A stretch of DNA of 59,814 nt, from contig CAIZGX010000033.1 of the NCBI GenBank assembly GCA_903932685.1, forward strand, positions 1 to 59,814. Reading direction: 5' to 3'. This stretch comes from an uncultured Bacteroidota bacterium (GTDB lineage Bacteria > Bacteroidota > Bacteroidia > Flavobacteriales_D > Sanyastnellaceae). Positions 22,056 through 59,102 of the stretch are shown here, in pieces (position 1 is the first letter of the stretch; every line of letters starts with the position of its first letter). The translations under genes were made by a program, and so were the position numbers. Under the pieces are notes generated by a model. That model searched no databases, was not told the origin of the DNA, and saw only the letters and a program-made list of their open reading frames with translations.

Positions 22056-22394
22056 ATGAAAAAATGGATCTTTCTTTCTATTGCAGCTGTAGCTGTTGGA
22101 TGTGCCGCTTCGAAGCAAGTAACAATTACTGAAGCTGATTTAAGTTTAGCGAAAACAGAATTCTCTGGAGTAACCCTAGCTGAATTGCAAACCGGACAAG
22201 TGTTGTACACAGAGCATTGCCAAAGTTGTCACGCGTTAAAAGATCCAGCATCTGAAGGCGTTCGCGGATGGAAGCATCATGTTCCTGAAATGGTAGAAAT
22301 GGCGAACAAAGACAAAGGTGCCGACCTCGACAAAAAAGAAGAGCAAGCGATTCTTCGTTATTTGATTACGATGGGACCGCTAAAAAAATCGTAG
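22056..22394 (+). CDS. Monohaem cytochrome c lipoprotein
   Basis: A 112-residue protein with a lipoprotein signal (AVGC, Cys16). One haem-binding motif CQSCH (Cys55, Cys58, His59) is present, with Met106 in ITMGP as the likely second axial ligand. Size and layout fit a small class I cytochrome c that carries electrons at the periplasmic face of a membrane. The partner oxidase is not in the window. The stop codon TAG (22392-22394) lies inside the first mini-hairpin of the repeat array that follows. Confidence 0.85.
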   Translation: MKKWIFLSIAAVAVGCAASKQVTITEADLSLAKTEFSGVTLAELQTGQVLYTEHCQSCHALKDPASEGVRGWKHHVPEMVEMANKDKGADLDKKEEQAILRYLITMGPLKKS

Positions 22395-22627
22395 ATTTTT
22401 TTTGAACTGCGTTATTGGAAAACCGTAGGTTTTATTCCTATTGCATAATTGGAAAATCGTAGATTTTATACCTATTTCATAATTGGAACTGCGTTGTTAT
22501 TATTGATTGAGAATTACAAAGTAGGAATCACGTAGTAGGAATTACGTAGTAGGAATTACGTAGTAGGAATTACGTAGTAGGAATTACGTAGTAGGAATAA
22601 AACCTTCGGTTTTCCAACAACGTAGTT
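22382..22627. repeat. Mini-hairpin array A (about 15 triloop hairpins, 5-base spacers)
   Basis: The convergent gap between the cytochrome and MuiA-like genes is filled with short palindromes having three-base loops. Examples (stem/loop/stem): AAC/TGC/GTT at 22405-22413, AAAACC/GTA/GGTTTT at 22419-22433, TAT/TGC/ATA at 22439-22447, AAAATC/GTA/GATTTT at 22453-22467, TAT/TTC/ATA at 22473-22481, AAC/TGC/GTT at 22487-22495, TAC/AAA/GTA at 22515-22523, four copies of TAC/GTA/GTA between 22543 and 22593, AAAACC/TTC/GGTTTT at 22599-22613 and AAC/GTA/GTT at 22619-22627. Spacers are ATTGG, ATTCC or ATACC on the left and GGAAT on the right. A first hairpin with a 9-bp A/T-rich stem (22382-22402) ends in a run of T, like a terminator. 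By hand count, 14 of 15 loops are GNA on one strand. Confidence 0.85.
22521..22598. repeat. 14-bp tandem repeat within array A
   Basis: Five full units of GTAGGAATTACGTA (the first has C for T at position 9) starting at 22521, 22535, 22549, 22563 and 22577, then an 8-base partial unit at 22591. Each unit equals one TAC/GTA/GTA hairpin (9 bases) plus the GGAAT spacer (5 bases), so this is a homogenised stretch of the array. Copy number is likely to vary between strains. Confidence 0.95.
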
Positions 22628-28957: not shown

Positions 28958-29002
28958 TTCAACGCAAGATGTTTCACAAGATTCTTCGAAAGATGCTTCG
29001 CA
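28958..29002. repeat. Mini-hairpin array D (12-bp units, AGA spacer)
   Basis: Directly after the GH38-like stop, 9-base hairpin units alternate with AGA: an imperfect unit at 28958-28966, TGT/TTC/ACA at 28970-28978, TTC/TTC/GAA at 28982-28990 and TGC/TTC/GCA at 28994-29002. The last reads TGC/GAA/GCA on the other strand and holds the GCGAAGC core. The 12-base period is a multiple of three, and the same unit recurs inside the next gene at 29198-29236. Confidence 0.7.
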
Positions 29003-43940: not shown

Positions 43941-44747
43941 ATGCAGATGATTTGTAAAACTCATTTTCTTTCCTTTCAAAATAAATCGTTCAAAGTTGTT
44001 GAATGGCGTAAATCCGACAACCCAACAGAACTGATTTTATGCTTGCACGGGTTCGGAAGAAATCCGGAAGACTTTGAAAACTTTGCGCATGATTTGAAAG
44101 ATCATGAGCGAATGGTTGCCATTGGATTTTGGTCTCACAAAGACAGCGATTCATTTACCACAGAAGAATTAAAAGAAGGATTATCCGTTGAGTCTTGGGT
44201 GGAACAATTTCATTTCTTGTTGAATCATTATCAAGTTGAAAAATGCAGGCTCATTGCTTACAGCATGGGAGGTAGGCTTGGACTGATGCTCCTTCAACAT
44301 GCTGGAGAAAAAATATCATCTGCAAAATTCTTAGCCAGTGATGGGCTTACTCGAAATAAGTTGTACGCCTTTACCGTAGGCACTTGGGTAGGAAGGAAAA
44401 TCTCACACGGACTGAAGAAAAACGCAAGCGTTGTTATTCACTTAGCGCGTCTCTTAAAAAATCTGAAATTACTACCCGTTAAATTATTTCGTTTTGTGGA
44501 ATTCTACATGCACGAGCGTGCAATGCGCCAGCAGGTTTTCGATGTTTGGATGGGCTACAGGCACTGCTATCCTCAATTGAGAGCCGTTGCGCAAGCCATT
44601 GAGCAGAATAAAATTCCCACTGAATTTATTTTCGGGAAGTATGATGTGATTATTCCCTGGAAACATGGGGATAAATTGCGAAGACTTACTTCGAATCTAA
44701 CCTTTGTGCGGTGGGAGATGGTTGAGAAGGGACATAGACTTATGTAA
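43941..44747 (+). CDS. Alpha/beta hydrolase
   Basis: A 268-residue cytosolic hydrolase. CLHGFGRNPEDF marks the oxyanion-hole loop, AYSMGGRLGLMLL (about 111-123) the nucleophile elbow with Ser, FGKYDVIIP (about 234-242) the Asp region, and the C-terminal VEKGHRLM holds the likely catalytic His. It is near the usual length but ends 2 residues after the His. The substrate is not known; it resembles MenH-like and other small-substrate hydrolases only in a general way. Confidence 0.8.
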   Translation: MQMICKTHFLSFQNKSFKVVEWRKSDNPTELILCLHGFGRNPEDFENFAHDLKDHERMVAIGFWSHKDSDSFTTEELKEGLSVESWVEQFHFLLNHYQVEKCRLIAYSMGGRLGLMLLQHAGEKISSAKFLASDGLTRNKLYAFTVGTWVGRKISHGLKKNASVVIHLARLLKNLKLLPVKLFRFVEFYMHERAMRQQVFDVWMGYRHCYPQLRAVAQAIEQNKIPTEFIFGKYDVIIPWKHGDKLRRLTSNLTFVRWEMVEKGHRLM

Positions 44748-44775
44748 CGTTGTCAACAACTGTTAAAATCTCTAC

Positions 44776-44807
44776 TTGCACCATAACGGTTTAAGGTTGT
44801 AATTTCG
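44776..44807 (+). promoter_or_regulatory. Promoter-like site of carB
   Basis: TTG at 44776-44778, 21 bases, then TAATTTCG at 44800-44807 (one mismatch to TAnnTTTG). It lies about 57 bases before the carB ATG. Confidence 0.4.
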
Positions 44808-44863
44808 CCGACGTATTAGAAAAACGCACCTTACTTCATCCTACGAAGTGAGATAAAAAAAAA

Positions 44864-47680
44864 ATGCCCAAAGACAAAAGCATTAAGTCGGTCCTTATTA
44901 TCGGTTCAGGACCTATCGTTATCGGACAAGCATGTGAATTTGATTACTCTGGAAGCCAGGCTGCGCGCTCGTTGCGTGAAGAAGGCATTGAAGTAACCCT
45001 CATCAATAGCAACCCCGCAACCATCATGACAGACAAGGTGGTTGCCGATAACATTTACTTGCTTCCTTTAGAACCTGCAAGCATTGAGACCATTCTTAAA
45101 AATCATAAGATCGACGTAGTTCTTCCAACCATGGGTGGACAAACCGCCTTGAACCTCGCGATTCAATGCGAAGAAAGCGGCATGTGGGAACAATACGGTG
45201 TTCGCATGGTGGGAGTAGACACTAAGGCCATTGAAATTACTGAAAACCGCGAGGCGTTTCGCGATTTAATGATTGAAATAGGCGTGCCTATGGCTCCGCA
45301 ATTAACCGCAAAATCTTTCCTTGAAGGAAAAGAAATTGCCCAACAATTCGGATTCCCTCTTTGTATTCGTCCTTCATATACCTTAGGCGGCTCAGGCGCT
45401 AGCTTGGTTTACAACCAGTCAGACTTCGATCGTTTGCTTACACGCGGACTGCACCTTTCCCCTATTCATGAAGTCATGATAGACAAAGCCCTTATGGGTT
45501 GGAAAGAATACGAGTTGGAATTGCTTCGAGATGCCAACGATAACGTGGTGATCATTTGTAGCATTGAAAACTTCGATCCAATTGGAATTCATACCGGAGA
45601 TAGCATTACGGTTGCGCCGGCCATGACCTTAAGCGATACGACTTTCCAAAAGATGCGCGACATGGCCATTATGATGATGCGTGCCATTGGAAATTTCGCT
45701 GGCGGATGTAACGTTCAATTTGCGGTTTCTCCCGATGCGAACGAAGACATTATTGCCATTGAAATTAATCCGCGTGTTTCGCGCTCTTCCGCTTTGGCAT
45801 CTAAAGCAACGGGGTATCCGATTGCGAAAATTGCTGCGAAGTTGGCCATTGGTTATCACCTCGACGAACTTCAAAACCAAATTACCAAGAGCACTTCGGC
45901 TTTGTTCGAGCCGACGTTAGACTACGTGATTGTGAAAATCCCACGTTGGAATTTCGATAAATTCCCTGGATGCAACCGCGAGTTAGGTTTGCAAATGAAG
46001 AGTGTTGGTGAAGTAATGGGAATTGGAAGAACCTTCCAAGAAGCGCTTCAAAAGGCTTGTCAGTCCTTAGAGATCAACAGAAACGGATTAGGTGCCGACG
46101 GGAAAGAACTTCGCGATCAGCAAGAAATATTAAACTCGTTGGAGCATCCAAGTTGGAATCGTATTTTCCATATTTACGACGCCATTAAATTGGGAATACC
46201 CTTCAAAACCATTCAAGAAAAAACACGCATCGATTTGTGGTTCTTGAAACAAATTGAAGAGTTGCTTCAGTTGGAACGCGTGATTGAAAAGCACACCCTC
46301 GCTTCCATTCCGAAAGAATTGTTGTTCGAAGCGAAGCAAAAAGGTTATGCCGACAGACAAATCGCTCACCTGCTGAAATGCTTGGAAAGCGAAGTGTATA
46401 CCAAGCGCGACGAGATGGGCATTCAGCGTGTATACAAGTTGGTAGATACGTGCGCTGCTGAGTTCGAAGCGAAGACTCCATATTACTATAGCACATTCGA
46501 ATTCGAGAACGAAAGTGTTCGTTCCGAAAACAAAAAAGTAATTGTATTGGGAAGCGGCCCGAACCGCATTGGTCAAGGTATCGAGTTCGACTACTCGTGT
46601 GTGCACGGCGTGCTTGCTGCGAAGGAATGCGGATATGAAACCATCATGATCAACTGCAATCCGGAAACCGTATCAACCGATTTCGATACAGCAGACAAGT
46701 TGTATTTCGAACCGGTTTTCTGGGAACATATTTACGACATCATTCGTCATGAAAACCCCGTGGGAGTAATTGTTCAGCTTGGCGGACAAACAGCTTTGAA
46801 GCTAGCCGCAAAACTTCAGCGCTACGGAATAAAAATATTAGGAACCTCTTTTGACGCCTTAGACTTGGCCGAAGACAGAGGCCGTTTTTCAAATTGTTTG
46901 AAGGACAATAACATTCCTTATCCGGATTTCGGTGTAGTTGAAAACGCAGAGCAAGCCATAGAATTATCGAAAAATTTAGGCTTCCCGTTGTTGGTTCGTC
47001 CGAGCTACGTGCTAGGTGGACAAAAGATGAAGATTGTGATTAACGAGCACGAATTAGAGCAGCACGTGGTGAATATTCTTCGCGACATGCCCGACAATCA
47101 GATTTTGTTAGACCACTTCTTGGAAGGCGCTATTGAAGCGGAAGCCGATGCTATTTGCGACGGAACAGATGTTTACATCATTGGCATTATGCAACACATT
47201 GAGCCTGCTGGAATTCACAGCGGCGATTCTTACGGTGTTTTGCCTCCATACAACTTGGGAGACCTAGTAATGACGCAAATTGAAGAGCACACGAAGAAGA
47301 TTGCCTTGGCGCTTGGAACGGTGGGGTTGATTAACATTCAGTTCGCCATTAAAGACGACGTTGTATACATTATTGAAGCGAATCCACGTGCATCGCGCAC
47401 AGTGCCTTTCATAGCGAAAGCCTACGACGAACCGTATGTTAACTACGCCACGAAAGTTATGTTGGGTGAATTGAAGGTGAAGGACATTAACTTCCAACCC
47501 AAACGCAACGGCTACGCAATTAAAATTCCTGTATTCAGCTACGAGAAATTCCCTGAGGTAAACAAAGAACTCGGTCCAGAAATGAAATCAACTGGCGAAG
47601 CCATTCGATTCATCAAAGACTTGAAGGACCCGTTTTTCAGGCAGATTTTTTCGGAGCGGAATTTATACCTTTCGAAGTAA
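44864..47680 (+). CDS. carB: Carbamoyl-phosphate synthase large subunit CarB
   Basis: A 938-residue enzyme with two ATP-grasp halves. The first starts with SVLIIGSGPIVIGQACEFDY, the second with VIVLGSGPNRIGQGIEFDY at about 560. ATP-binding segments such as FPLCIRPSYTLGGSG and FPLLVRPSYVLGGQ are intact. It makes carbamoyl phosphate from bicarbonate, ATP and ammonia (delivered by CarA). The protein ends near 938, so the C-terminal allosteric MGS-like domain of about 130 residues found in E. coli CarB is absent, as appears usual in Bacteroidota. carA is not adjacent. The stop is followed at once by array B. Confidence 0.95.
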   Translation: MPKDKSIKSVLIIGSGPIVIGQACEFDYSGSQAARSLREEGIEVTLINSNPATIMTDKVVADNIYLLPLEPASIETILKNHKIDVVLPTMGGQTALNLAIQCEESGMWEQYGVRMVGVDTKAIEITENREAFRDLMIEIGVPMAPQLTAKSFLEGKEIAQQFGFPLCIRPSYTLGGSGASLVYNQSDFDRLLTRGLHLSPIHEVMIDKALMGWKEYELELLRDANDNVVIICSIENFDPIGIHTGDSITVAPAMTLSDTTFQKMRDMAIMMMRAIGNFAGGCNVQFAVSPDANEDIIAIEINPRVSRSSALASKATGYPIAKIAAKLAIGYHLDELQNQITKSTSALFEPTLDYVIVKIPRWNFDKFPGCNRELGLQMKSVGEVMGIGRTFQEALQKACQSLEINRNGLGADGKELRDQQEILNSLEHPSWNRIFHIYDAIKLGIPFKTIQEKTRIDLWFLKQIEELLQLERVIEKHTLASIPKELLFEAKQKGYADRQIAHLLKCLESEVYTKRDEMGIQRVYKLVDTCAAEFEAKTPYYYSTFEFENESVRSENKKVIVLGSGPNRIGQGIEFDYSCVHGVLAAKECGYETIMINCNPETVSTDFDTADKLYFEPVFWEHIYDIIRHENPVGVIVQLGGQTALKLAAKLQRYGIKILGTSFDALDLAEDRGRFSNCLKDNNIPYPDFGVVENAEQAIELSKNLGFPLLVRPSYVLGGQKMKIVINEHELEQHVVNILRDMPDNQILLDHFLEGAIEAEADAICDGTDVYIIGIMQHIEPAGIHSGDSYGVLPPYNLGDLVMTQIEEHTKKIALALGTVGLINIQFAIKDDVVYIIEANPRASRTVPFIAKAYDEPYVNYATKVMLGELKVKDINFQPKRNGYAIKIPVFSYEKFPEVNKELGPEMKSTGEAIRFIKDLKDPFFRQIFSERNLYLSK

Positions 47681-47682
47681 TT

Positions 47683-47791
47683 CCGCAGAGCGGTCATCAA
47701 CGAAGTTGTCATCCTTCGAAGAAGGTCATCCGGAACGGTCATCACACAAAGTGTGTCATCGCAACTGCGTTGCGCCATCCTTCGAAGAAGG
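47683..47791. repeat. Mini-hairpin array B (seven hairpins, TCAT spacer)
   Basis: The convergent gap between carB and the AAA+ gene is fully filled. Hairpins (stem/loop/stem): CCGC/AGA/GCGG at 47683-47693, CAAC/GAA/GTTG at 47698-47708, CCTTC/GAA/GAAGG at 47713-47725, CCG/GAA/CGG at 47730-47738, CACAC/AAA/GTGTG at 47743-47755, CGCAAC/TGC/GTTGCG at 47760-47774, CCTTC/GAA/GAAGG at 47779-47791. The spacer is TCAT five times and CCAT once; the last hairpin abuts the reverse-strand stop. All stems are perfect, and all begin with C and end with G. Confidence 0.9.
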
Positions 47792-49252
47792 TTATAAACC
47801 TTTGATATAGTTGTTAAACGAATCATTAAACGCCGTCCCTCCCGCTGTGCGGTGTTTGGAAAGTTGTTTGAATTCCACCAACGCCCACAACACGAATTCC
47901 ATGAGGAAAGGAACGTCAATGGTTGCCACCTTCGGTTGATACTTGTTTAACAAAATCACAAGCGGTTCAACGGAAAGAAGTGCCTTTACGTAGGTCTCTT
48001 CATTCGATTCGTCGGTGAGTTCAAAGGCATCGGCTTCGAAAAACCAGTTGATGATTTCATCGTACGGAGTTTCTTGGTCTTGCTTTTTCAGTTTTTCAAT
48101 CTTCGGGAAGTATTGAACGAACAAGGTTTTGGTGGCCTCTGCTATCAAGTGATTTGCAACGAATGCCGTTCCTTCTTGTTCGCCTTCGTAAACCAATTCC
48201 ACCTTCCCGGTTATGGAAGGAATCATGCCCATGAGATCGCTGAAGCGAACAGAGGTTTTTGTTTCACCGTTCATGAGCGCACGACGTTCAGCAGTGCTGA
48301 TTAAATTTTCAAATGCCGTAATACTCATACGTGCACTCACACCGCTCTTGTGATCGATGTATTCACTTTGTCTGGCTTCGAAAGCAATTTGCTCGAGAAT
48401 GTCGCGAGCCAATTCAGGAACATGAACAGCGCACAAACGATCTTCCAACTTCTCGGACTCTTGCTTCGTAATCTTCTTCGCAGTTTGAATATCGGCTGAG
48501 TAATGCGTCAAAATCTGAGAACCAATGCGGTCTTTCAGCGGAGTGACAATGCTTCCGCGATTGGTGTAGTCTTCCGGATTCGCGGTGAAGACAAATTGCA
48601 AATCCAACGGAAGTCTCAATTTAAATCCGCGAATCTGCACATCTCCTTCTTCCAAAATATTGAAAAGCGCCACTTGAATACGCGCTTGCAAATCGGGCAA
48701 TTCGTTAATCACGAAAAGACAGCGGTTCGCTCTAGGTATCATTCCGAAATGAATCACGCGCTCATCTGCATAACTCAATTTCAAGTTGGCAGCTTTAATC
48801 GGATCAATGTCTCCAATTAAATCGGCGATGGTCACGTCTGGTGTTGCTAACTTTTCGAAGAAACGACCCGAGCGATGAAGCCAGGTAATCGGCGTTTCAT
48901 CTCCTTTCTCTTCCATGAGATCACGCGCATAGCGACTGATCGGATGAAAAGGATCGTCGTTCATTTCACTTCCAGCTACAACAGGAATATACTCGTCGAG
49001 CAAGTTGATCATCAAGCGCGCAATGCGCGTCTTCCCTTGTCCGCGAAGACCCAACAAGTTAATGTTGTGCTTCGACAAAATGGCGCGTTCCAATTGCGGA
49101 ATCACCGTTTGCTCATATCCGTGCATCCCCGGGAAGGTTTCCTTTCCAGCTTGAATAGATACAATGAGGTTGTCGCGCAACTCGTTCTTAATGCTTTTTG
49201 AAATATATCCCGACGCTTTCAATGCGCCAAATGTGTTGATCGAAGTATTCAT
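47792..49252 (-). CDS. AAA+ ATPase of the magnesium-chelatase (BchI/MoxR-like) type
   Basis: A 486-residue ATPase with Walker A GLRGQGKT (68-75), Walker B-like VINE (181-184, Asn in place of the first Asp, as in this family), then LPDLQARIQVALFNILEEGD and the sensor-like LQFVFTANPEDYTNRG. The family is often labelled sigma-54-interacting or magnesium-chelatase-like, but there is no sigma-54 or DNA-binding domain here. It works with VWA-domain partners. The adjacent upstream gene (4 bases away) is such a VWA protein, so they probably form one complex, possibly remodelling a target. The true substrate is unknown. Confidence 0.82.
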   Translation of the reverse strand: MNTSINTFGALKASGYISKSIKNELRDNLIVSIQAGKETFPGMHGYEQTVIPQLERAILSKHNINLLGLRGQGKTRIARLMINLLDEYIPVVAGSEMNDDPFHPISRYARDLMEEKGDETPITWLHRSGRFFEKLATPDVTIADLIGDIDPIKAANLKLSYADERVIHFGMIPRANRCLFVINELPDLQARIQVALFNILEEGDVQIRGFKLRLPLDLQFVFTANPEDYTNRGSIVTPLKDRIGSQILTHYSADIQTAKKITKQESEKLEDRLCAVHVPELARDILEQIAFEARQSEYIDHKSGVSARMSITAFENLISTAERRALMNGETKTSVRFSDLMGMIPSITGKVELVYEGEQEGTAFVANHLIAEATKTLFVQYFPKIEKLKKQDQETPYDEIINWFFEADAFELTDESNEETYVKALLSVEPLVILLNKYQPKVATIDVPFLMEFVLWALVEFKQLSKHRTAGGTAFNDSFNNYIKGL

Positions 49253-49256
49253 TCGT

Positions 49257-50366
49257 TTAGTTAATTCGTTTTTTTCTATTCGTTTCGTAATCGTGAAAGA
49301 TCATTTCACCCAATCCTTTCAACCCAGTATAAAATGCTTTGCCTTTGTTCGACTGTGTAAACTGTTCTACGAAAGCTTGCAGATAAGGATCTTGCGCAAT
49401 CATGAAAGTAGTAATTGGAATGTGCATCTTGCGCGCTTGCGCCGCCATGGTGTAGCAGCGTTCAACAATATGCTCATCCAATCCATTGCTGTTCTTATAG
49501 TATTGTCCGTCAGGCAAGCGAAGGCAACTAGGCTTTCCATCGGTAATCATGAAGATTTGTTTGTTCGTGTTCTTCTTTCTTCGAAGAATGTCCATTGCCA
49601 ACTCGAGACCGGCAACGGTGTTCGTGTGATAAGGACCCACATTCAAATAAGGTAGGTCTGCAATTTTGATAGGCCAGGCATCGTCACCGAAGACAATCAC
49701 ATCGAGGGTGTCTTTCGGATAGGAAGTCGTGATGAGCTCTGCCAACGCCATCGCCACTTTCTTTGCGGGAGTGATTCGATCTTCTCCGTATAGAATCATG
49801 CTGTGGCTAATGTCAATCATAAGCACGGTGCTCATCTGCGACTTATGATGGGTGTCTTCCACCACCAAATCTTGTTCGGTTAGTTTGAAGTCGCCGACGC
49901 CGTTGTTGATTTGCGCGTTCTTCAAACTTTCAGTCACTGAAATATTTTCGAATGAATCTCCGAATTGAAAACTTCGAAATTCTCCCGTTGCTTCATCGCC
50001 TTGTCCGCTTTTCTTGCTCTTGTGATTTCCCGCTCCGCTCTTCCGAATCTTTCCGAAGATTTGATCCATGGCATTTTTCCGAAGCACACGTTCCGTCTTG
50101 GCCGTAATAGCCATCTGTCCTTGTCCGTCTGGTAGAATTTCTTCCTTCAAATATCCCATCTTCTTCAGGTCTTCAATAAAATCTTCCATTCCGTAATCAT
50201 CGGTGGTAAGCTTGTATTCCTTATCAATTTCTTTTAACCACTCTAGCGCCTCGTCTACATCTCCGGAAGTATGCGTAATGAGTTCACTGAACACATCGAA
50301 CAGTCTCTCGAACGGAGAAAGATTGGGTTCTTCAAACGGCTTAAAAACATAACCAGACTTTTGCAT
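49257..50366 (-). CDS. VWA-domain protein, partner of the AAA+ ATPase
   Basis: A 369-residue protein. Residues about 178-360 form a von Willebrand A domain with an intact MIDAS: DISHS (Asp185, Ser187, Ser189) and ITDGKPS with Asp276. The N-terminal half is polar and helical. No signal peptide is seen. It pairs with the downstream AAA+ gene as in BchD/BchI or MoxR-VWA systems. The start codon lies inside a 16-base palindrome (50358-50373). Confidence 0.82.
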   Translation of the reverse strand: MQKSGYVFKPFEEPNLSPFERLFDVFSELITHTSGDVDEALEWLKEIDKEYKLTTDDYGMEDFIEDLKKMGYLKEEILPDGQGQMAITAKTERVLRKNAMDQIFGKIRKSGAGNHKSKKSGQGDEATGEFRSFQFGDSFENISVTESLKNAQINNGVGDFKLTEQDLVVEDTHHKSQMSTVLMIDISHSMILYGEDRITPAKKVAMALAELITTSYPKDTLDVIVFGDDAWPIKIADLPYLNVGPYHTNTVAGLELAMDILRRKKNTNKQIFMITDGKPSCLRLPDGQYYKNSNGLDEHIVERCYTMAAQARKMHIPITTFMIAQDPYLQAFVEQFTQSNKGKAFYTGLKGLGEMIFHDYETNRKKRIN

Positions 50367-50373
50367 GCAAAAG
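50358..50373. promoter_or_regulatory. 16-bp perfect palindrome over the VWA start codon
   Basis: CTTTTGCATGCAAAAG is its own reverse complement, and the start codon of the VWA gene (CAT on this strand, 50364-50366) lies in its centre. It could be an operator or could fold in the mRNA and affect translation. Confidence 0.4.
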
Positions 50374-50420
50374 GAATTTAAGGAATAACATTGCTTGTGA
50401 GGAAAGGTTCAAAGATAGAG

Positions 50421-50594
50421 GGAACTGCGTTTCGCAATCCTACGGATCAATCACTTTGTGATCAATCTGATTGCATCAGATCAATTGCTGCGCAATCAAT
50501 CACCTTTGGTGATCAATCCTTCGGATTTATCGTAACGATTGATCTGAAAGATTGATTCGAAGAATTGATCACGAAGTGATTGATCGCTTCGCGA
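50421..50594. repeat. Mini-hairpin array C (12 hairpins, TCAA spacer switching to TTGA)
   Basis: Between the VWA start and the recG stop. Hairpins: GGAAC/TGC/GTTTC at 50421-50433 (one G-T wobble), TCC/TAC/GGA at 50438-50446, TCAC/TTT/GTGA at 50451-50461, TCTGAT/TGC/ATCAGA at 50466-50480, TTGC/TGC/GCAA at 50485-50495, TCACC/TTT/GGTGA at 50500-50512, TCC/TTC/GGA at 50517-50525, TCG/TAA/CGA at 50530-50538, TCT/GAA/AGA at 50543-50551, TTC/GAA/GAA at 50556-50564, TCAC/GAA/GTGA at 50569-50579, TCGC/TTC/GCGA at 50584-50594. The spacer is TCAA (first copy GCAA) up to 50516, TTTA once, then TTGA, its reverse complement. All but the first begin with T and end with A. The last one abuts the recG stop. 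Confidence 0.9.
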
Positions 50595-52694
50595 TCAAGA
50601 AATCCCACTCCAATCACTCTTCTTCTTCTTCAAACGCAACAGTTCTTCGCGGATAGGGGTGCTGCTTTCGCTAGATAAATTCGGATCTTCCGTGAGCCAT
50701 TCGTTCGCTATGTTGCGGGCGGCGGCCATCATCTGTTGGTCCTTCACCATGTCTGCTATGCGCAGTTGCAAAACACCACTCTGAGCTGTACCGGCCAAAT
50801 CGCCCGGACCACGCAAGCGCAAATCCACTTCTGCTATTTCAAATCCGTCCGTCGTGCGAACCATCGTCTCCATGCGCAACTTCGTGTCGTCGCTTAACTT
50901 ATGTCCGGTCATAAGAACGCAATAACTCTGATCGGCCCCTCGCCCTACCCTGCCGCGCAACTGGTGCAATTGAGATAAGCCAAAACGCTCGGCACTCTCT
51001 ATCACCATCACACTCGCATTCGGAACGTTCACCCCGACTTCAATAACCGTAGTAGCCACCATGATCTGCGTCTTCTTCTCAATGAACTGCTTCATCTCGA
51101 AATCGCGATCTTCAGCCTTCATTCTTCCATGTACAATTGAAATGAAATACTTCGGAGATGGAAACGCACGCGACATACTTTCGTATCCGTCGAACAAATC
51201 CTTGTAATCCATCTTCTCGCTCTCTTCAATCATCGGATAAACAATATAGACCTGACGGCCTAACGCTATTTCCTGACGAATAAATTCAAACAACATCAAC
51301 CGATAAGCATCGGTGTGCCACTGGGTATTCACCGGCTTTCTTCCTGGAGGAAGCTCATCAATTATACTCACATCTAAATCGCCATACACCGTCATGGCCA
51401 ACGTACGCGGAATGGGCGTTGCGGTCATGACTAAAATATGCGGAGGCAAGGCGGCCTTCTTCCACAAGGCCGCGCGTTGCGCAACACCAAACCGATGTTG
51501 CTCATCGATCACTACCAATCCTAAATTCGCAAATTCAACAACAGGTTCTATCAACGCGTGCGTTCCAATAATGAACTTCAATTCACCACTCTTCAAATCT
51601 TCCATCAACGGAACACGACTCTTCTTCTTCACCGAACCGGTGAGCAATTCAACGCGAACTCCCAAGGGCTCTAACAATTGCGAAATGCCTTCGTAATGCT
51701 GATTCGCTAAAATCTCTGTAGGCGCCATGAGACATGCTTGATAGCCGTTGTCTATGGCCAACAAAATTGCCATGAGCGCTACAATGGTCTTTCCACTTCC
51801 TACATCTCCCTGAACCAAACGGTTCATGTGAAAGCCCTTCACCACATCGGTGCGAATCTCTTTCACCACTCGCTTCTGCGCCCCCGTTAATTCAAACGGC
51901 AAATGCTTTTTATAAAACGAATTGAATAATTCTCCAACCTTCTCGAACACCACTCCGCGCTGCTCTACCGTACCCGCCAACTTCGTTTGCAACACTTGCA
52001 ACTGAAGGAAAAACAATTCTTCAAACTTTAATCTTCTTCTCGCTTGCTCCAACTTCTCTGCATTCGCAGGCGCATGCAATTGCACCAAGGCTTCCGCGCG
52101 AGAAATTAATTTGTATTGCTGAATCAATTCCTGCGGCAACACTTCCGGAATTTCATGTCGAACTTCTTCACACAACTGCAGCGTTAATTTTCCAATCACG
52201 TTGCTGTTCAATCCTCTGTTCGACATCTTCTCAGTTGTGCTGTACACAGGCTTCAAACCCACGCCAGCCGCCATGCGTGAAGATTCAATCTCTTCCACTT
52301 CCGGATGAGCCATGTTGAACTTGCCTTTGAACTCGGTTGGTTTTCCGTACACCAAACAAGGCTTGTTCAAAGGCAAACTGCTCTTGAGCCAACGCGCTCC
52401 CTTGAACCACACCAACTCCATAGTACCCGTCTCGTCTTGGAAGATTCCAACCAAACGTTTGGCGCGCGCTTCGCCCACTTCAGTTAACCGAACGATTGTG
52501 CCTTGCAACTGCACCGCCACGGCGTCTGACTTCACGTCGCGCACTTTCTGAACCTGACTCTTGTCTACATGCCGAAACGGATAATGCATGAGCAAATCTT
52601 CCCACGTGCGAATGCCCAATTCCATGCGAAATTGATCAGCCCGCGCAGGTCCAACTCCTTTTAAAAAAGAAATATCATTTTCCAGTTTCGACAT
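50595..52694 (-). CDS. recG: ATP-dependent DNA helicase RecG
   Basis: A 699-residue superfamily 2 helicase. An N-terminal OB/wedge domain (about 1-180) is followed by the motor: Walker A GDVGSGKT (296-303), DEQH box (397-400) in VVIDEQHRFGV, MTATPIPRTL, and the second motor with RGRVGRGADQSYCVL. The TRG-like C-terminus is present. RecG remodels stalled replication forks and Holliday junctions. Its 3' end touches array C, and its start is divergent from the next gene. Confidence 0.95.
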   Translation of the reverse strand: MSKLENDISFLKGVGPARADQFRMELGIRTWEDLLMHYPFRHVDKSQVQKVRDVKSDAVAVQLQGTIVRLTEVGEARAKRLVGIFQDETGTMELVWFKGARWLKSSLPLNKPCLVYGKPTEFKGKFNMAHPEVEEIESSRMAAGVGLKPVYSTTEKMSNRGLNSNVIGKLTLQLCEEVRHEIPEVLPQELIQQYKLISRAEALVQLHAPANAEKLEQARRRLKFEELFFLQLQVLQTKLAGTVEQRGVVFEKVGELFNSFYKKHLPFELTGAQKRVVKEIRTDVVKGFHMNRLVQGDVGSGKTIVALMAILLAIDNGYQACLMAPTEILANQHYEGISQLLEPLGVRVELLTGSVKKKSRVPLMEDLKSGELKFIIGTHALIEPVVEFANLGLVVIDEQHRFGVAQRAALWKKAALPPHILVMTATPIPRTLAMTVYGDLDVSIIDELPPGRKPVNTQWHTDAYRLMLFEFIRQEIALGRQVYIVYPMIEESEKMDYKDLFDGYESMSRAFPSPKYFISIVHGRMKAEDRDFEMKQFIEKKTQIMVATTVIEVGVNVPNASVMVIESAERFGLSQLHQLRGRVGRGADQSYCVLMTGHKLSDDTKLRMETMVRTTDGFEIAEVDLRLRGPGDLAGTAQSGVLQLRIADMVKDQQMMAAARNIANEWLTEDPNLSSESSTPIREELLRLKKKKSDWSGIS

Positions 52695-52750
52695 TCCTCA
52701 CGAAAATATAATAACTTGTGCAAGCATTCATCCTTTGTGGACATTTAACC

Positions 52751-54274
52751 ATGAATCAACAGCAATACAACAGACTCTTTTACGTGCTTTCGGCCTTCGT
52801 GCTCGTTGAAAAAATGCTGGTGTATTTCTTCTTTTCTATTCAATACACAGACAGCGATCAAACGCTTTTGTGGCAAGTGGCTACGGACCTTTCGAACGGT
52901 GTTTTTCACGGACCGTGCTTTTACGGACAAAGTTACGGCCCTAACATAGAACCCTTGTTGGCCTTGCCTTTCATGAAAATTGGATTTCCCGTTTATGCGG
53001 CGCTTCCGCTTGCAACGTTAATCCTTTCTACCACGCCATTTTTTCTTTTAGCGTTTTATTTCAAACATAAACTTTCAGCGCAATCCGCCCTTATTCCACT
53101 TATCGTATGCCTCTTGCTTCCGTTGGAATACAGTCTACTTACTGCCATACCACGCGGATTCGTGGGCGGAATCTTTTCTGTAAGTCTCGGATTATTCTGT
53201 TGGAAATATTTCCGAACGAACCTCTCGTTGGTATTCGCTGGAATTTTTATTGGATGGGGTCTCTATGGAAATTTGAACAGCGCCTTGCTTCTTCCACTTA
53301 TTATTCCAAGCATTCATTGGAACAAGAAATTCATTTTACGTGCAGTGCTTTTCTTCGGACTTGGATTTATACTGGGACTACTTCCCTTCTACTTCAACTT
53401 TCACTATTACCGAGCGCATCCGGAATTGCTCATTCACGTAGCACCCAGCGTAAAACTCAGCTGGTCCAGTTTCCTTGAAACCATTTATCGATTCAACAAT
53501 TATTTCGATCAGGTTTCACCCCTGTTTTGGCGTTTCGGATTTGTTAGCGTGCTCTTACTTCCAGCTGCAATAATTTTATTGTGGAAGAGAAATAAACGCC
53601 TTGAAGCGTGGACGATTGCGTTCGTCTTATTGGCTATTCTCGGATCGCTCTTCATGGAAAAAACAAAGGAAAGCGGCTATTCACTTTTCTTTTCAGGTGG
53701 AAGATTTTTCCTCGCACTTCCGTTCGTGTTCATCTTCCTTTCATTGTACTTCTATGCCTTTCTGTCTTCGAAAAATAAATTGAAATTCAATCGCATTGCG
53801 TTGTTGCTCGTTGCTGCTTCCTTCGGAATAAAAGTTTTCTTCTTTTCACCCCTCCTCGAGAACGCCATTGACAAAGAGAAAGCCTGGTACGTGCATGTGG
53901 TGCGCATTGATGAATTGAAAAAGCAATGTCAGGAAATGAATGAATTCGGAAATCATCCAACGCTAGTTATTGCTGTAACCGGAGACACGCCTGAACAGCC
54001 TGTAACCTACGGTTGTCAGTGCCTTCAAGCCGACTTCCCTTCCACCTATATTCCACATTACGAAAGAAGAAGATGGCTTATTTCGGAATACAACAAGACG
54101 GTTTTCCCGACCATTCTTTTGCATGGAAAGGACACCACGCGTTGGGACAGAAGCAAGTTTCATCACTTGCATATTTTGAAGCACGACAAAGAAAAGGGTT
54201 GGATGCTGGTTCAGAATTCAGAAGCCACCGATGTCTTTCTTTTTGAAAGCGGGATATTAACTCCGAATAAATAA
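52751..54274 (+). CDS. Polytopic membrane protein, possible GT-C glycosyltransferase
   Basis: About 507 residues from the ATG at 52751; the open frame also extends to GTG 52718, but the extra residues are unlikely. There are about ten hydrophobic segments up to residue 380, and a soluble C-terminal part of about 125 residues. After the first segment, YTDSDQTLLWQVATDLSNG resembles the acidic loop of GT-C (PMT/ArnT-like) glycosyltransferases, and the DSD could be the metal/lipid-sugar site. No clear family motif beyond that. It lies 4 bases before dtd. Confidence 0.6.
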   Translation: MNQQQYNRLFYVLSAFVLVEKMLVYFFFSIQYTDSDQTLLWQVATDLSNGVFHGPCFYGQSYGPNIEPLLALPFMKIGFPVYAALPLATLILSTTPFFLLAFYFKHKLSAQSALIPLIVCLLLPLEYSLLTAIPRGFVGGIFSVSLGLFCWKYFRTNLSLVFAGIFIGWGLYGNLNSALLLPLIIPSIHWNKKFILRAVLFFGLGFILGLLPFYFNFHYYRAHPELLIHVAPSVKLSWSSFLETIYRFNNYFDQVSPLFWRFGFVSVLLLPAAIILLWKRNKRLEAWTIAFVLLAILGSLFMEKTKESGYSLFFSGGRFFLALPFVFIFLSLYFYAFLSSKNKLKFNRIALLLVAASFGIKVFFFSPLLENAIDKEKAWYVHVVRIDELKKQCQEMNEFGNHPTLVIAVTGDTPEQPVTYGCQCLQADFPSTYIPHYERRRWLISEYNKTVFPTILLHGKDTTRWDRSKFHHLHILKHDKEKGWMLVQNSEATDVFLFESGILTPNK

Positions 54275-54278
54275 ATTC

Positions 54279-54713
54279 ATGAAAATCGTTCTTCAACGCG
54301 TGTCGAGTGCCTCTGTAAAAGTTGATTCCAAAACTGTTGGAAGTATAGAACACGGGCTCTTGCTGCTCATTGGTTTTTCTTCGGCAGACACGGAGGAAAG
54401 TATTCTTCCAACGATAGAAAAAATTGTGAAGCTTCGCGTTTTTTCAGACGAAGAAGGAAAGATGAACAAGAGTGTTTTAGATGTAGATGGAAGTGCATTG
54501 CTCGTGAGTCAATTCACGCTGTACGCCGACACGAAGAAAGGCAACAGACCTAGCTTTATTGAAGCTGCCAGACCTGAACAAGCGATTCCGCTTTATGAAT
54601 TTTTCATTGCTGAAATGAAAAAGCGAATCGCGAAAGTTGAAACTGGAATCTTCGGTGCAGATATGAAAGTTGAATTGGTCAACGACGGACCGGTTACAAT
54701 TGTCTTCGACTAG
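54279..54713 (+). CDS. dtd: D-aminoacyl-tRNA deacylase Dtd
   Basis: A 144-residue enzyme of full length. Conserved marks: MKIVLQRVSSASVKVD, the SQFTLYAD motif with the catalytic Thr, GNRPSFIEAARPEQA, and the C-terminal VETGIFGADMKVELVNDGPV holding the Gly-Pro motif that selects D-amino acids. It removes D-amino acids and glycine from mischarged tRNAs. It overlaps the convergent DUF4924 gene by 4 bases. Confidence 0.95.
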   Translation: MKIVLQRVSSASVKVDSKTVGSIEHGLLLLIGFSSADTEESILPTIEKIVKLRVFSDEEGKMNKSVLDVDGSALLVSQFTLYADTKKGNRPSFIEAARPEQAIPLYEFFIAEMKKRIAKVETGIFGADMKVELVNDGPVTIVFD

Positions 54714-55258
54714 TTCAAATGCTGAACAGATTCTCCCTTCTTCATTTTGTTGTATTGAAGGGCCAACAGAATCATTACATCTGAAAAAGTCTTCATAGCA
54801 TCTTTGGTTTCTTCAGAGATCTCTTGCTTACGCAGACGAAGAACCATTAATCCGTATAACGCCGTTAAATAGGCTTCCACTTCACTCAATGCTTTTCCAT
54901 TTGCACGCTCGCGATAGGCATCTAGATTTTCCTTTGCGCGTTCGTTTGCTGCAATGTATTCATCGTCGCGAAGCAACGTGTTCAATGTTGTGTGAAGCAA
55001 ATTCAATTCAGAAATAACCTCTTGCACTTCTTCCACATTGCCCTTCTCTTCAGCGCTGCTGCGCTTCATGCTTTTCGCTAATCCTTCGAACCACGTTTTC
55101 TCTTCCTGAATTTTTTCTTCGGATGGAAGGAACGAACGCAGAAAACTGTCGAGCGATTCAACATCCATGTTCACCGCACGAAGTAAGTCTTGCATCTGCC
55201 ACATGTAAATAATATACTCGGCTATGTTCTCGGCGTATTTGCGTTCGGCTATGGTCAT
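54710..55258 (-). CDS. DUF4924 family protein
   Basis: A 182-residue, mostly helical, charged protein. The N-terminus RKYAENIAEYIIYMWQMQDL and later YLTALYGLMVLRLRKQEIS fit the Bacteroidota family DUF4924, of unknown function. No signal peptide or catalytic motif. Its start shares one base with the stop of the OmpH-like gene, which suggests coupled translation. Confidence 0.8.
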   Translation of the reverse strand: MTIAERKYAENIAEYIIYMWQMQDLLRAVNMDVESLDSFLRSFLPSEEKIQEEKTWFEGLAKSMKRSSAEEKGNVEEVQEVISELNLLHTTLNTLLRDDEYIAANERAKENLDAYRERANGKALSEVEAYLTALYGLMVLRLRKQEISEETKDAMKTFSDVMILLALQYNKMKKGESVQHLN

Positions 55259-55911
55259 TAGTTCCCTTGCTTTTCAGTTTCGTATTCGGCATTTAATCCC
55301 TTCACTATCTCAGTTGTTAAATCGTAAATCGGATTTGCAAATAAAATAAGTGGCGCAGTGCTTTGGTATGAGAAGATGTAATCCCAGCCGTTTGCTTTCG
55401 CATAATTAGCCGTGTATACTTCCAACTTCTTTCTTAGATTTTCTTGAAGGGCAGATTCGTTTTGCATAAGAATTTGCTCTTCTTGTTGCTGAATTTGCGC
55501 CAATTCATTTTCCAATTGACTCAACCTGTTTTGTACGGTTGCTTGCTCATCGGCAGGAAGATTTCCTTTTTGAGCGTATGCCACCAATTCATTCACTTCT
55601 TTTTGACGCTTAGCTGCTTCTGCTTTCACCTTTGCCTCTGCCGCTGTTGCGCTTTGCTCCAATTCTGCAGACTTTTCAGTAATGAATAAATACTGTGCGT
55701 TCAATGAATCTAAATTCACGTAAGCAATCTTCATTTGACCCGGGCTAATGGTATCTACCACCTTCGACTTCTCTGCCAACTCCATTGCGGTGTTCAACTT
55801 ACTCCAAATAACCAACAAAGCCACAAACGTTATGGCGAAGAGAATAACTAGAATTAAGTTAAAAGCGAACGGCTTTTTCACGGGTTGGTTTTCTGAAAGT
55901 TGATGCTCCAT
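55258..55911 (-). CDS. OmpH/Skp-like protein with a membrane anchor
   Basis: A 217-residue protein. After about 13 polar residues it has one uncleaved-looking membrane segment (about 16-38, FNLILVILFAITFVALLVIW), then an OmpH/Skp-like part: IAYVNLDSLNAQYLF, a long coiled coil (about 80-165) and a C-terminal beta region (WDYIFSYQSTAPLI). Skp/OmpH proteins are periplasmic chaperones for outer-membrane proteins and normally have a cleaved signal; here the anchor is likely retained. The start overlaps the upstream small gene by 34 bases. Confidence 0.75.
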   Translation of the reverse strand: MEHQLSENQPVKKPFAFNLILVILFAITFVALLVIWSKLNTAMELAEKSKVVDTISPGQMKIAYVNLDSLNAQYLFITEKSAELEQSATAAEAKVKAEAAKRQKEVNELVAYAQKGNLPADEQATVQNRLSQLENELAQIQQQEEQILMQNESALQENLRKKLEVYTANYAKANGWDYIFSYQSTAPLILFANPIYDLTTEIVKGLNAEYETEKQGN

Positions 55912-56123
55912 GCTTTATGTAAATTTTGAAATTGGTTTTCAATCTCGGTTAGAAATTCGTCATTCAATAATAGCCTTACCGCCTCAATGGTTTTCACCGC
56001 TTCTTGATCAATCTTTATGGCTTGCTTGTATGATGCTGCTTCGAACTCCACAATCCACTTGCCGTTCCACGAATGGACAACAATGCGCATACGTGAATGT
56101 GGAATGGTTTCAATGGCTCTCAT
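55878..56123 (-). CDS. Small conserved-looking protein (81 aa)
   Basis: An 81-residue protein with the start MRAIETIPHSRMRIVVHSWN, two strands (GKWIVEFEAASYKQAIKI) and a helical end. It has the look of a small Bacteroidota protein of unknown function. It overlaps the OmpH-like gene by 34 bases in another frame, so the two are probably co-translated, which argues that the ORF is real. No motif gives a role. Confidence 0.6.
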   Translation of the reverse strand: MRAIETIPHSRMRIVVHSWNGKWIVEFEAASYKQAIKIDQEAVKTIEAVRLLLNDEFLTEIENQFQNLHKAWSINFQKTNP

Positions 56124-56135
56124 AGTCCTGCGAAT

Positions 56136-57386
56136 TTAATTGTTTTCTTCAACTTTTTTAGCCAAGTTTTTCAAACGAAGCATAATGAAGAAAGCCATGA
56201 GGGTGAAGCACATGGCCACATAACCAACAACATGATAGTTTTCTAAAGGCGCATTGGCGTTGGCTTGCGTAATAATACTTCCAGCCAATGCTGCGCTAAT
56301 ACCAGATGCCGTGCTCTGTGCGGCAGAGTTCAAACTCATGAATCCTGCTCTATGCTTGGGATTCACCACACCGCTAACAATGGTGTTCGCCGGAATCATT
56401 CTTCCCGTTACCATCACAAAGAAAAATCCAGCAATGGTTAAGACAATCCACAAATCGGTTTCAGGCAGATTCGTGTTTATGAAAATAGGAATGAGCGAAA
56501 GCAAGGCGAAGAATCCAAACACCTTAAATCTTCCAATTTTATCTACTGCTCTTCCAATTAAAATACTGCTGATTACCGTGCAGAATCCTCCAACCAAATA
56601 GATGTACTTAACTTCGTGTTGTTCCAATTTCACATTGGAAATCATGTACGGAGTCAAGAACGAAATAATGGTGAACTGCCCAAGCACCAGAAGAACTGTA
56701 AATAGCAAAGCGTTTCGCTGCGCCACATTCGAGAAGGAGGCCTTGAACGTTTCCATGGGCTCGAACTTGTGCGTTCTTCGATCCAAGTGATCGCGCAAAG
56801 GTGGAAGGGTTTTCCAAGCCATGAACCAAAACGGCAGACTGAGTGCACTCACCATATAAAAAGGCACGTGCCAATTTCCATCAAAAAAATCGACCATGGT
56901 TAGCGCCATGGGAACTCCCAAAATAGAGGCTAACGAAAAAGCAAGCGTAATGGCCGCCATCGCTTTCCCTCTTCGTTCCATAGGTATAACGTCGGCCACA
57001 ATAGACATAACCAATCCGCCAAGTAATCCGCCAGTAATTCCAGTTAAAATGCGCGTTCCAACAAACAAGTAGTAATTCAATTCGTTGTTATCGGTAGTTG
57101 GAACAAGCGCGCTGCTTAGGGTTCCGAGCATGAATCCTAAGTAAGCAAGCAATAACGCTTTCTTTCTTGGAAGATTATCGAGATAGAACACCCCCAAGAA
57201 CGAAGTCAATCCTGCTGCCAATCCGTAAGAACTCACTAGCCAACCGAATCCTGTTGGACCCACACCCAAGTCGCGCTTCAAGATGTCGCCCATGGGCATC
57301 ATAATCATGAAGTCTACGATATTGGTAAACTGAATGGCTGCTAAAGCAATTAAGATCCAACGTTCTTTGCTTATTGAATTAGCCAT
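56136..57386 (-). CDS. Major facilitator superfamily transporter
   Basis: A 416-residue protein with 12 membrane segments. It shows the MFS loop 2-3 region (FYLDNLPRKKALLLAYLGFM) and the central loop (about 195-215). It resembles AraJ-like drug/sugar efflux permeases. The substrate cannot be named. The start overlaps the end of the GNAT-like gene by 8 bases, so the two form one unit on the minus strand. Confidence 0.85.
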   Translation of the reverse strand: MANSISKERWILIALAAIQFTNIVDFMIMMPMGDILKRDLGVGPTGFGWLVSSYGLAAGLTSFLGVFYLDNLPRKKALLLAYLGFMLGTLSSALVPTTDNNELNYYLFVGTRILTGITGGLLGGLVMSIVADVIPMERRGKAMAAITLAFSLASILGVPMALTMVDFFDGNWHVPFYMVSALSLPFWFMAWKTLPPLRDHLDRRTHKFEPMETFKASFSNVAQRNALLFTVLLVLGQFTIISFLTPYMISNVKLEQHEVKYIYLVGGFCTVISSILIGRAVDKIGRFKVFGFFALLSLIPIFINTNLPETDLWIVLTIAGFFFVMVTGRMIPANTIVSGVVNPKHRAGFMSLNSAAQSTASGISAALAGSIITQANANAPLENYHVVGYVAMCFTLMAFFIMLRLKNLAKKVEENN

Positions 57387-58641
57387 TGTATTGGGAATTC
57401 CATTCCCTCTGTTTAGTATCTAAAACATTTTGCCATTCTTGTTTGAACGGAAAACGTTGAGGCTCATTTCCTGGGTGAACTTTCGTAAAAAACAACTTCA
57501 ACAAAGCATTGCGAAGTCTTCCCGGATGACGCAGTGCTATGCGCATTTCCACCGGAACCGCGCCGAAGGTAGATTTTATTTCTCCAGCCGTTCTTCCAAA
57601 GGCAATCTCTTCGCATTGGGCCTCAATGGCCATTTTCACGAAGGAGAGCAACATGTTTGAATACAGCCCGTAAGTTGAATTAGCGTCGTAGTCTATTCCA
57701 ACTAAAAACGCTTCCAATTCTTTGTGATTGATTAAGGCAATCTGATATCCGATGATTTCGTTCGAAACATAAAAGGCTTGTATAACCATTTTATCTTGAA
57801 GCGAATTCTTCAATTCAATCAAGAATTCGGTCGTTAATGGCTCCATAGCGAACTCAGCGCGATCGTATACGTTTCTGTACAATGCCTGAACAACCGTTGA
57901 ATTCGTTGCCAAGTCTTCGGCGCTCCAGACGCGTGTTTCCAGGTCTTCGAATTTCTTCAATGCGGCTTTCGCCTTGGTTCTGAACTTCGTGTTCAGCGCG
58001 TTCAGATAATCATCAAAGGTTTTCCAATTACTATCAAAAGGCATCTTCAACAAATGATCCACCGCGAAAGTGTGAAACCCGCATTCCTTCAACTCGTTCA
58101 ACGCGTTGTAATCTTTCGGATAAAAGTCTTTCACCACTACCGCTTGCGTATCTCTGTTGCTCTTCCGCAAAAAATGAATAACGTCTGTAAGGGCATAACA
58201 TAAAGCCGTTGTGGCTTCTTCCACCTGAATTTCCTTCTGAAAAATGTATCCGTGCGGACCCGTGCAAAACGGACTTCCGCAGACTACTATGGGATATTGT
58301 CGCGACTGTCTGCCGAAGACGCGCGCCACAAATCCGGCTCCGCCTTCCACGTCTACGTGCGATTTCAATTCTCCTGAAACGAAGTAAGTGTATTGCAAAA
58401 CCGCAATACCAATGGGCATTTCATTCTTGAAAAACAAAATGTAAAACAGGTTTCCTTCCCAACCTTTCGAAAGAGCCGATAAATAATCTGAAGAGAGAAA
58501 AACGTTTTGCTCGTGATTCAGAGAATCCCATGTCTCTATTGGCACATCGGCAAACTTATCGGTTACGGTATAACTAAGCTCTGAAGAGCCCAGTGACCAT
58601 CGCACCTTCTTTCGTTCACCAAACACGCTGCAGTTTACCAT
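57379..58641 (-). CDS. GNAT/FemAB-like acyl- or peptidyl-transferase
   Basis: A 420-residue protein. The middle and C-terminal parts resemble two GNAT folds as in the FemAB/BioF2-like (Acetyltransf_6) group: LNTKFRTKAKAALKKFEDLE, then AFYVSNEIIGYQIALINHKE and LYSNMLLSFVKMAIEAQCEE. Such enzymes add amino acids or acyl groups, often in envelope synthesis. The specific reaction is unknown. Its gene overlaps the MFS gene by 8 bases; this may point to a product that is made and then exported, which is a guess. Confidence 0.7.
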   Translation of the reverse strand: MVNCSVFGERKKVRWSLGSSELSYTVTDKFADVPIETWDSLNHEQNVFLSSDYLSALSKGWEGNLFYILFFKNEMPIGIAVLQYTYFVSGELKSHVDVEGGAGFVARVFGRQSRQYPIVVCGSPFCTGPHGYIFQKEIQVEEATTALCYALTDVIHFLRKSNRDTQAVVVKDFYPKDYNALNELKECGFHTFAVDHLLKMPFDSNWKTFDDYLNALNTKFRTKAKAALKKFEDLETRVWSAEDLATNSTVVQALYRNVYDRAEFAMEPLTTEFLIELKNSLQDKMVIQAFYVSNEIIGYQIALINHKELEAFLVGIDYDANSTYGLYSNMLLSFVKMAIEAQCEEIAFGRTAGEIKSTFGAVPVEMRIALRHPGRLRNALLKLFFTKVHPGNEPQRFPFKQEWQNVLDTKQREWNSQYNG

Positions 58642-59100: not shown

Positions 59101-59102
59101 TC

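Follow-up and report, generated by a model that had tools for sequence, protein, structure and literature searches.

The closest described systems to the elements reported here are the repetitive extragenic palindromes (REPs) of Y1 (HUH) transposases. According to PMC8266576, a Stenotrophomonas TnpAREP cuts REPs whose stem is perfect and 8 bp long and whose loop has 3 nt; a G at loop position 1 and the loop orientation are critical, a mismatch is harmful, many stem changes are tolerated, and a GTAG foot is required for cleavage. In the classification by Quentin et al. 2018 (PMC6006769), subclass 1.2 is marked by the motifs DH[IV]H, WQ, and YIKNQKEHH, the table gives no REP for this subclass, and subclass 2.5 proteins read Y---NP. 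Here we analyze tandem arrays of mini-hairpins in a window of 59,814 nt, namely contig C33 of a 2.37-Mb, 84-contig assembly (genome G000). Four stretches of the window (Table 1) contained 37 perfect palindromes with a 3-nt loop (triloop hairpins) and stems of 3 to 9 bp. The stability of DNA mini-hairpins with a GNA loop closed by a C-G pair (C-GNA-G) is well established.

The hairpin arrays were confirmed as real. Three genomes (G000 and its close relatives G004 and G001; about 1.24 Mb) were scanned with a chain score calibrated on dinucleotide shuffles, and an array was called at a score of 8 or more. The 505 intergenic gaps of these genomes contained 36 such chains, compared with 0.4 in the shuffles. 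In this the arrays show one feature of REPs in the wide sense, being dispersed intergenic palindromes in many copies. A first-pass annotation of the window had argued that the pattern was hard to obtain by chance or by simple tandem duplication and had proposed shuffled controls; the chain counts bear out the former, the latter is also supported, and hairpin counts were not equal to those of the controls. Intergenic DNA of the window held 15 triloop hairpins with stems of at least 5 bp versus 3 expected (3 arrays versus 0.0), and the intergenic DNA in 400 kb of G000 held 87 versus 34 (9 arrays versus 0.4), with 68 versus 32 hairpins in 400 kb of G004. Other loop lengths were near expectation, 4-nt loops being slightly up (58 versus 38 in G000 and 42 versus 32 in G004). 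A scan for 5-nt loops returned 20 chains but was unusable as a control because triloop hairpins with an opened closing pair remained in it. Neither arrays nor more than a slight triloop excess were found in the 20 to 140 kb sampled from each of eight relatives (G007, G009-G012, G014, G015, and G018). The pattern ATCGTAGAT had 24 matches in the window's genome versus 14 for the reversed control, which is no clear enrichment, and no Rfam structured RNA matched within the window at the gathering score. Chance palindromes in AT-rich intergenic DNA could be invoked for the AGA-type array, the weakest piece of the four, whose three units have a chain score of 0.0, below the threshold and not significant alone. 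As a general explanation, chance is refuted by the shuffles, and the finding that stems are the least-changing part of orthologous arrays (see below) also speaks against it; we regard it as practically excluded.

The 36 arrays share one design. Their units lie head to tail, mostly 0 to 5 nt apart, with stems mostly of 3 to 6 bp, and the spacer is constant inside one array and different between array types, just as the first-pass annotation had claimed from the window; grouping the arrays by eye, we distinguished about seven spacer types (CA/TG, ATGA/TCAT, GAAT/GAGG, AGA/TCT, GGAAT/CCAAT, TACA/AAG, and CCT). The loop was of GNA type in 186 of the 284 hairpins in these arrays and C-GNA-G in 145, and the closing pair was C-G in 202 and T-A in 52 (together 254). 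For the four stretches in the window, the annotation's loop preference stood but its exact tally did not: it had counted 31 of 38 loops as GAA, GTA, or GCA on one strand, with 25 of these closed by C-G, whereas our recount gave 28 of 37 and 22 of those 28. The array units are directional, in that the orientation of the spacer is coupled to that of the GNA loop. When only GNA and TNC loops were counted, TG spacers were associated with 63 GNA and 6 TNC loops and CA spacers with 1 and 48; the corresponding values were 17 and 1 for TCAT spacers and 5 and 34 for ATGA spacers. The ATCA-type array illustrates the coupling, in that spacers are mostly CA and loops TNC (or TTT) in its left part, and spacers TG and loops GNA in its right part, the final loop being TTC. 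In DNA folding predictions the minimum for the TCAT-type array comprised all seven mini-hairpins (z -3.2), and a longer pairing of the two halves was favored for the ATCA-type array (z -5.4).

The arrays are located at the 3' ends of genes and start at stop codons. Their density was highest in convergent gaps (16 in 10.9 kb), compared with 13 in 41.4 kb of tandem gaps and 7 in 19.5 kb of divergent gaps; the gene calls were simply the longest open frames, and this crude procedure may partly account for the divergent-gap arrays. All but one of the 16 convergent-gap arrays lay no more than about 20 nt from a stop codon (15/16), and 11 of the 13 tandem-gap arrays were closer to the 3' end of the upstream gene. 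Different array types can replace each other in one slot. Behind recG, an ATCA array is present in G000, G001, G003, and G006 and an ATGAC array in G004. The slot behind the gene at 47792-49252 is filled by ATGA arrays in G000, G002, G004, and G005 and by ATCA arrays in G001, G006, and G008 (the contig of G003 stops at this point, and no match was obtained in G007), and that behind 22628-24259 by GGAAT arrays in G000 and G004 and ATCA arrays in G001 and G006, with no array in the more distant G007. The proteins in front of the compared slots were 92-100% identical, except in G007 (69%). When slots of G000 were compared with those of G004 or G001 (132 comparisons), neither side had an array in 122, both sides did in 7 (five slots), and one side did in 3, where the arrays scored 9.2, 8.1, and 7.3; the type differed, as judged by eye, in 3 of the 7 both-sided comparisons, and in a fourth slot G001 has the two types together. 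The starting point at stop codons, the coupled orientations, and the replacement of types within a slot were all absent from the first-pass annotation. At one clean empty/filled site, G001 has 106 nt of extra DNA right after the stop codon and G000 and G004 are empty. This insert has no visible target duplication and contains 12 triloop hairpins with stems of at least 3 bp versus 2.3 in shuffles, none of 2000 shuffles reaching 12. As a separate observation, the G001 slots behind recG and behind the ortholog of 47792-49252 have additional coding-like DNA between two arrays (L155/L156; C67:32417-33204 and 35934-37262), and the bracketing arrays sometimes differ in type, as if arrays flank cargo.

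Comparison of 87 aligned orthologous units, with units of more than three stem changes dropped from the rates, yielded changed bases at 22 of 812 stem, 22 of 229 spacer, and 44 of 255 loop positions. The view that stems vary while pairing is kept, also put forward in the annotation, thus holds between orthologous arrays. An earlier two-direction count of 830 orthologous stem pairs gave 29 that were broken and 10 that were changed on both sides. In the comparison of aligned units, 17 mismatched pairs included 2 G-T and 6 A-C, too few to separate RNA from DNA. Single-base loop events on identical stems affected the middle base in 12 of 17 cases (one-sided binomial 0.002), with a few possible double counts at one site, the 47792 slot, where two start positions were used. 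Two loops were inverted on identical stems at recG (GAA/TTC and AAA/TTT, the second possibly a misaligned duplicate), a TGC/GCA flip was visible in a C84 array, and whole units were gained, lost, and duplicated between related arrays.

Y1 transposase genes are present in the genus. Matches to PF01797 (Y1_Tnp) were obtained in four of the nine genus genomes, namely G000, G001, G004 (two), and G006 (two), and none in G002, G003, G005, G007, and G008. The six genus proteins contain DHVH, WQ, and YI[QK]NQKxHH; together with three proteins from the order, hand-picked along with them from 21 Y1_Tnp matches, they share DH[VI]H, WQ, and YIxNQ[KE]xHH, so that the subclass 1.2 motifs (DH[IV]H, WQ, Y---Q--HH) are present in 9 of 9 aligned proteins. 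Judged by these motifs, the genus proteins fit subclass 1.2 TnpA_Y1. The relatives of the Y1 proteins suggest that the source genome belongs to Bacteroidota. The Y---NP motif of a class 2 TnpAREP partner was found in none of the six. A predicted structure (mean predicted local distance difference test score, 80.8) had IS608 and ISDra2 TnpA as its top Protein Data Bank matches (E 1e-8, TM about 0.55), and a RAYT with its REP hairpin ranked 30th. The type designated Y1-a has two copies, each with an ATCA array nearby, one 70 nt away with a score of 24.7 and the other 267 nt away with a score of 7.1; an untyped chain scoring 7.5 lies 215 nt from copy L036, and none was found for the three other copies. 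For reference, 4.8% of positions are near a chain scoring at least 7. An IS200/IS605 insertion sequence with its own tnpA was rejected as the identity of the arrays, the one Y1_Tnp match of G000 being on C64 and the window on C33. By eye, GAAT-spaced hairpin units missed by the chain scan were seen upstream of copies L036 and L043. Also by eye, two hairpins of a different kind, CCCCCAGC-nnn-GCTGGGGG and, close to it, GCTCGC-nnn-GCGAGC, form a pair that flanks one Y1 type (L034 flanks); the pair recurs elsewhere, in the L004/L015 recG slots, and is perhaps the true partner repeat of that type.

Triloop hairpins are also concentrated around subclass 1.2-type Y1 genes elsewhere. Motif patterns combined with tblastn gave at least 565 confirmed loci, of which 80 named ones were kept; the intergenic DNA within 500 nt of the gene was tested, and DNA more than 1200 nt away was taken as far flanks. 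The 80 loci contained 333 triloop hairpins versus 45.9 expected, part of them from low-complexity repeats such as the ATTAA runs at L191, and the far flanks contained 49 versus 31. Loops of 2, 4, 5, 6, 7, and 8 nt numbered 52 versus 47, 70 versus 44, 66 versus 33, 43 versus 35, 30 versus 34, and 47 versus 34, respectively. A second, independent set comprised 29 of 30 loci retrieved class-wide, the own locus being excluded; it gave 115 triloop hairpins versus 19.8, and the remaining loop lengths stayed close to expectation. Of 20 loci retrieved from the family, 15 remained once genus copies and one fragment were removed, and these gave 33 versus 6.5, with 12 versus 6.0 for 4-nt loops. The loci of both sets were selected by model score, without individual motif checks. 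Control loci yielded 2 versus 1.7 for recG (9 loci, 927 nt only) and 7 versus 2.1 for class 2 Y1 genes (6 loci, too small a set to call triloops special to subclass 1.2). The description of subclass 1.2 as lacking REPs therefore does not fit these genes, around which triloop hairpins were dense in all three sets. Loops were of GNA type in 149 of 333 cases at the named loci, which were also rich in GTT/AAC (53) and AAA/TTT (35) loops, and in 73 of 115 class-wide; GTA was the leading loop in the family set. The closing pair was C-G or T-A in 299 of 333, 105 of 115, and 29 of 33 hairpins of the named, class-wide, and family sets. At least three GNA hairpins occurred in 67 of 109 Y1 loci, and in 30 of these 67 one 3' flank was common to different stems. 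Sharing of a 3' flank by different stems was far commoner within loci (435 of 1671 sampled pairs) than between loci (5203 of 176,339), and the array design of common flank, variable perfect stem, and often GNA triloop therefore recurs at Y1 genes, spaced out. In the class, the protein model matched 75 of 119 genomes and GCCCTGAAAGGGC was present in 16, of which 13 had a Y1 model match; all eight genomes with at least three GCCCTGAAAGGGC copies had such a match, compared with 75/119 overall. This co-occurrence is suggestive only. Two further patterns were noticed at individual loci. Around the distant subclass 1.2-type genes at L248, L249, L254, L255, and L262, a tail resembling GATATAATTATAG recurs after the ACCCC/AGCCC/ATCCC-GAA- hairpins and is a candidate signal for cleavage or guidance. 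At L167, L172, L182, L191, and others, the GCCCT/GCCCC triloop hairpins are joined by another, longer one, for example CATAGGGC-nnn-GCCCTATG.

We lean, with just over even confidence, toward the arrays being compact tandem REP-like elements that are read by subclass 1.2 Y1 (HUH) transposases, relatives of IS200/IS605 TnpA and RAYT/TnpAREP, and we infer that a Y1 enzyme made them. The requirements of the Stenotrophomonas TnpAREP closely resemble what is conserved in the arrays, and single-strand DNA recognition by subclass 1.2 Y1 enzymes is therefore favored as their source. Such an enzyme would recognize a perfect stem of almost any sequence bearing a GNA-type triloop, the constant spacer would serve as guide or cleavage signal, and units would be copied or moved as single strands. 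Intergenic slots behind stop codons would tolerate inserts, and we propose that arrays for this reason accumulate and displace one another there; they may then also serve the host at transcript 3' ends. The fuller proposal of a structure-coded system, in which subclass 1.2 Y1 enzymes read a GNA-type triloop on a free-sequence perfect stem together with a short directional spacer and in this genus produce the tandem arrays found behind genes, with stem units swapped, gained, and lost and whole arrays replaced by another spacer type in fixed slots, is tentative, and as a whole we doubt it somewhat. Several results weigh against the enzymatic reading. No match between an enzyme and a spacer was shown; only two of the six Y1 copies of the genus lie within 400 nt of a typed array; and G002, G003, G005, and G008 have arrays yet no Y1_Tnp was found in these assemblies, which are 71-96% complete. 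A Y1 gene does not imply such arrays, because 15 of the 61 family genomes had a Y1 model match, among them 12 that do not belong to the genus, and the ATCA array pattern was found in only four, all from the genus. At the Y1 loci elsewhere, GNA loops are a minority in the largest set, their strand bias at the 80 named loci did not recur in the 29 class-wide loci, and the seven dense chains (score of at least 10), in 5 of the 80 loci, have no typed spacers as judged by eye. The empty/filled site is a single case with direction not proven, and its insert has a chain score of 5.5, under the array threshold and reached by 31 of 2000 shuffles. Finally, the inverted loops inside arrays would harm an enzyme of the Stenotrophomonas kind.

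The arrays might instead be RNA-level 3'-end elements under selection, either clustered-hairpin terminators or mRNA stabilizers; homologous recombination in neighboring genes would then exchange array types between strains, and the connection to Y1 would be indirect. Their placement at 3' ends, the density peak in convergent gaps, and slots that stay filled while array types change agree with such a role, and PMC8355165 proposes as terminators clusters of short hairpins that follow stop codons at spacings below 15 nt. The loop length of those hairpin clusters varies, however, whereas the arrays have exact 3-nt, mostly GNA loops and constant directional spacers, and neither these features nor the same signature at Y1 genes is predicted by RNA function. 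Furthermore, 7 of the 36 arrays lie in gaps called divergent, albeit from crude gene calls, and there is no regular T-run. Region 40000-59814, which includes two of the four arrays, had 13 terminator-like sites versus 21.2 in shuffles, only one of which (50422-50440) touches an array, at its edge; the GC-rich hairpin with T-run of an intrinsic terminator was accordingly rejected for these two arrays. We consider an RNA-level origin rather unlikely. Still less probable, in our estimation, is that the arrays write themselves, replication fold-back and template switching perfecting palindromes and flipping loops and slippage multiplying units with no dedicated enzyme. The loops inverted on identical stems at recG and in the C84 array and the gain, loss, and duplication of units are what such a process would produce, and stable C-GNA-G hairpins would promote fold-back. 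It leaves unexplained, however, the spacers constant across genomes, the spacer-loop coupling, the dispersed arrays of one type, the different types in one slot, and the concentration of hairpins at Y1 genes of many genomes; moreover, fold-back is universal, yet the samples of eight relatives contained no arrays.

The features of the window are listed in Table 1. The gene at 44864-47680 encodes a carbamoyl-phosphate synthase large subunit that matches model positions 1-926 of 1058 and ends just before the TCAT-type array; its C-terminal part seems absent. An AGA-spaced type similar to that of the short array occurs elsewhere, at C64:21997-22193 of G000 and C1:154760-154873 of G004. The longest array, also on C64 of G000 (19232-19647), has 29 mostly ATGA-spaced hairpins listed as two chains and is built mainly from few stem words (CCAC, CCC, CCG, and CCGC).

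Table 1. Hairpin arrays of the window and their adjoining genes
Feature	Position	Strand	Remarks
GGAAT/ATTGG-type array	22382..22627		15 triloop hairpins; bordered by the convergent genes 22056-22394 (+) and 22628-24259 (-); first hairpin and stop codon of 22056-22394 overlap
AGA-type short array	28958..29002		About 3 hairpins; immediately 3' of the stop codon of 26252-28957
TCAT-type array	47683..47791		7 triloop hairpins; occupies the whole gap of convergent genes 44864-47680 (+) and 47792-49252 (-)
ATCA-type array	50426..50598		12 triloop hairpins; chain score 37.2
recG	50595-52694	minus	NCBIfam match; stop codon abutted by the ATCA-type array

The annotation knew of no named repeat family like the arrays. 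Indeed, in open-licence literature on REP/RAYT, REPIN, GNA triloops, and flavobacterial palindromes we found no description of them or of subclass 1.2 hairpins, the hairpin letters searched as text returned no paper, and the part of PMC12306157 available contains neither triloop nor RAYT; the link of triloop arrays to repeats at Y1 transposase genes appears not to have been described before. The arrays nevertheless have relatives and, by their signature, belong with the REP-like hairpins of Y1/HUH transposases. If the structure-coded system is real, subclass 1.2 would have its missing REP class, and shape, not sequence, would define the repeat family. For a widespread HUH transposase group reported to lack partner repeats, this would mean a class of substrates whose rules are clear and can be tested. 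The arrays would also offer a natural example of hairpins that keep their shape while varying in sequence, of value for studies of how single-strand DNA is recognized and of how the intergenic slots downstream of genes fill and refill.

Compared with known systems, the arrays resemble BIME and REPIN elements in having opposite unit orientations inside one element, 10 of the 36 running from a TNC loop at the first classified position to a GNA loop at the last. They differ in having far more and much shorter units per element with differing stems, and in that 5 of 36 have the opposite end orientation and 20 of 36 the same orientation at both ends (one array had no classified loop). NEMIS and RUP are likewise intergenic palindromic repeats but are longer inverted-repeat elements of fixed sequence. 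With the group 3/subclass 2.5 TnpAREP REPs (the Stenotrophomonas REPtron), as described in PMC8266576 and PMC6006769, the arrays share a perfect stem, a G-first 3-nt loop, a directional constant foot motif, an intergenic location, and a Y1 transposase. Unlike the Stenotrophomonas REPs, with GTAG and an 8-bp stem, they have mostly shorter stems and type-specific spacers; a GTAG-tagged REP of a class 2 TnpAREP was rejected, as no GT[AG]G was present at the hairpin foot and the seven spacer types occurred instead. The genus Y1 proteins also read Y-NQ-HH, unlike the Y---NP of subclass 2.5, and resemble subclass 1.2 TnpA_Y1 of Quentin et al. 2018 in carrying its motifs. The difference from subclass 1.2 as published, for which the table in PMC6006769 lists no REP, is that such genes are here densely surrounded by triloop hairpins.

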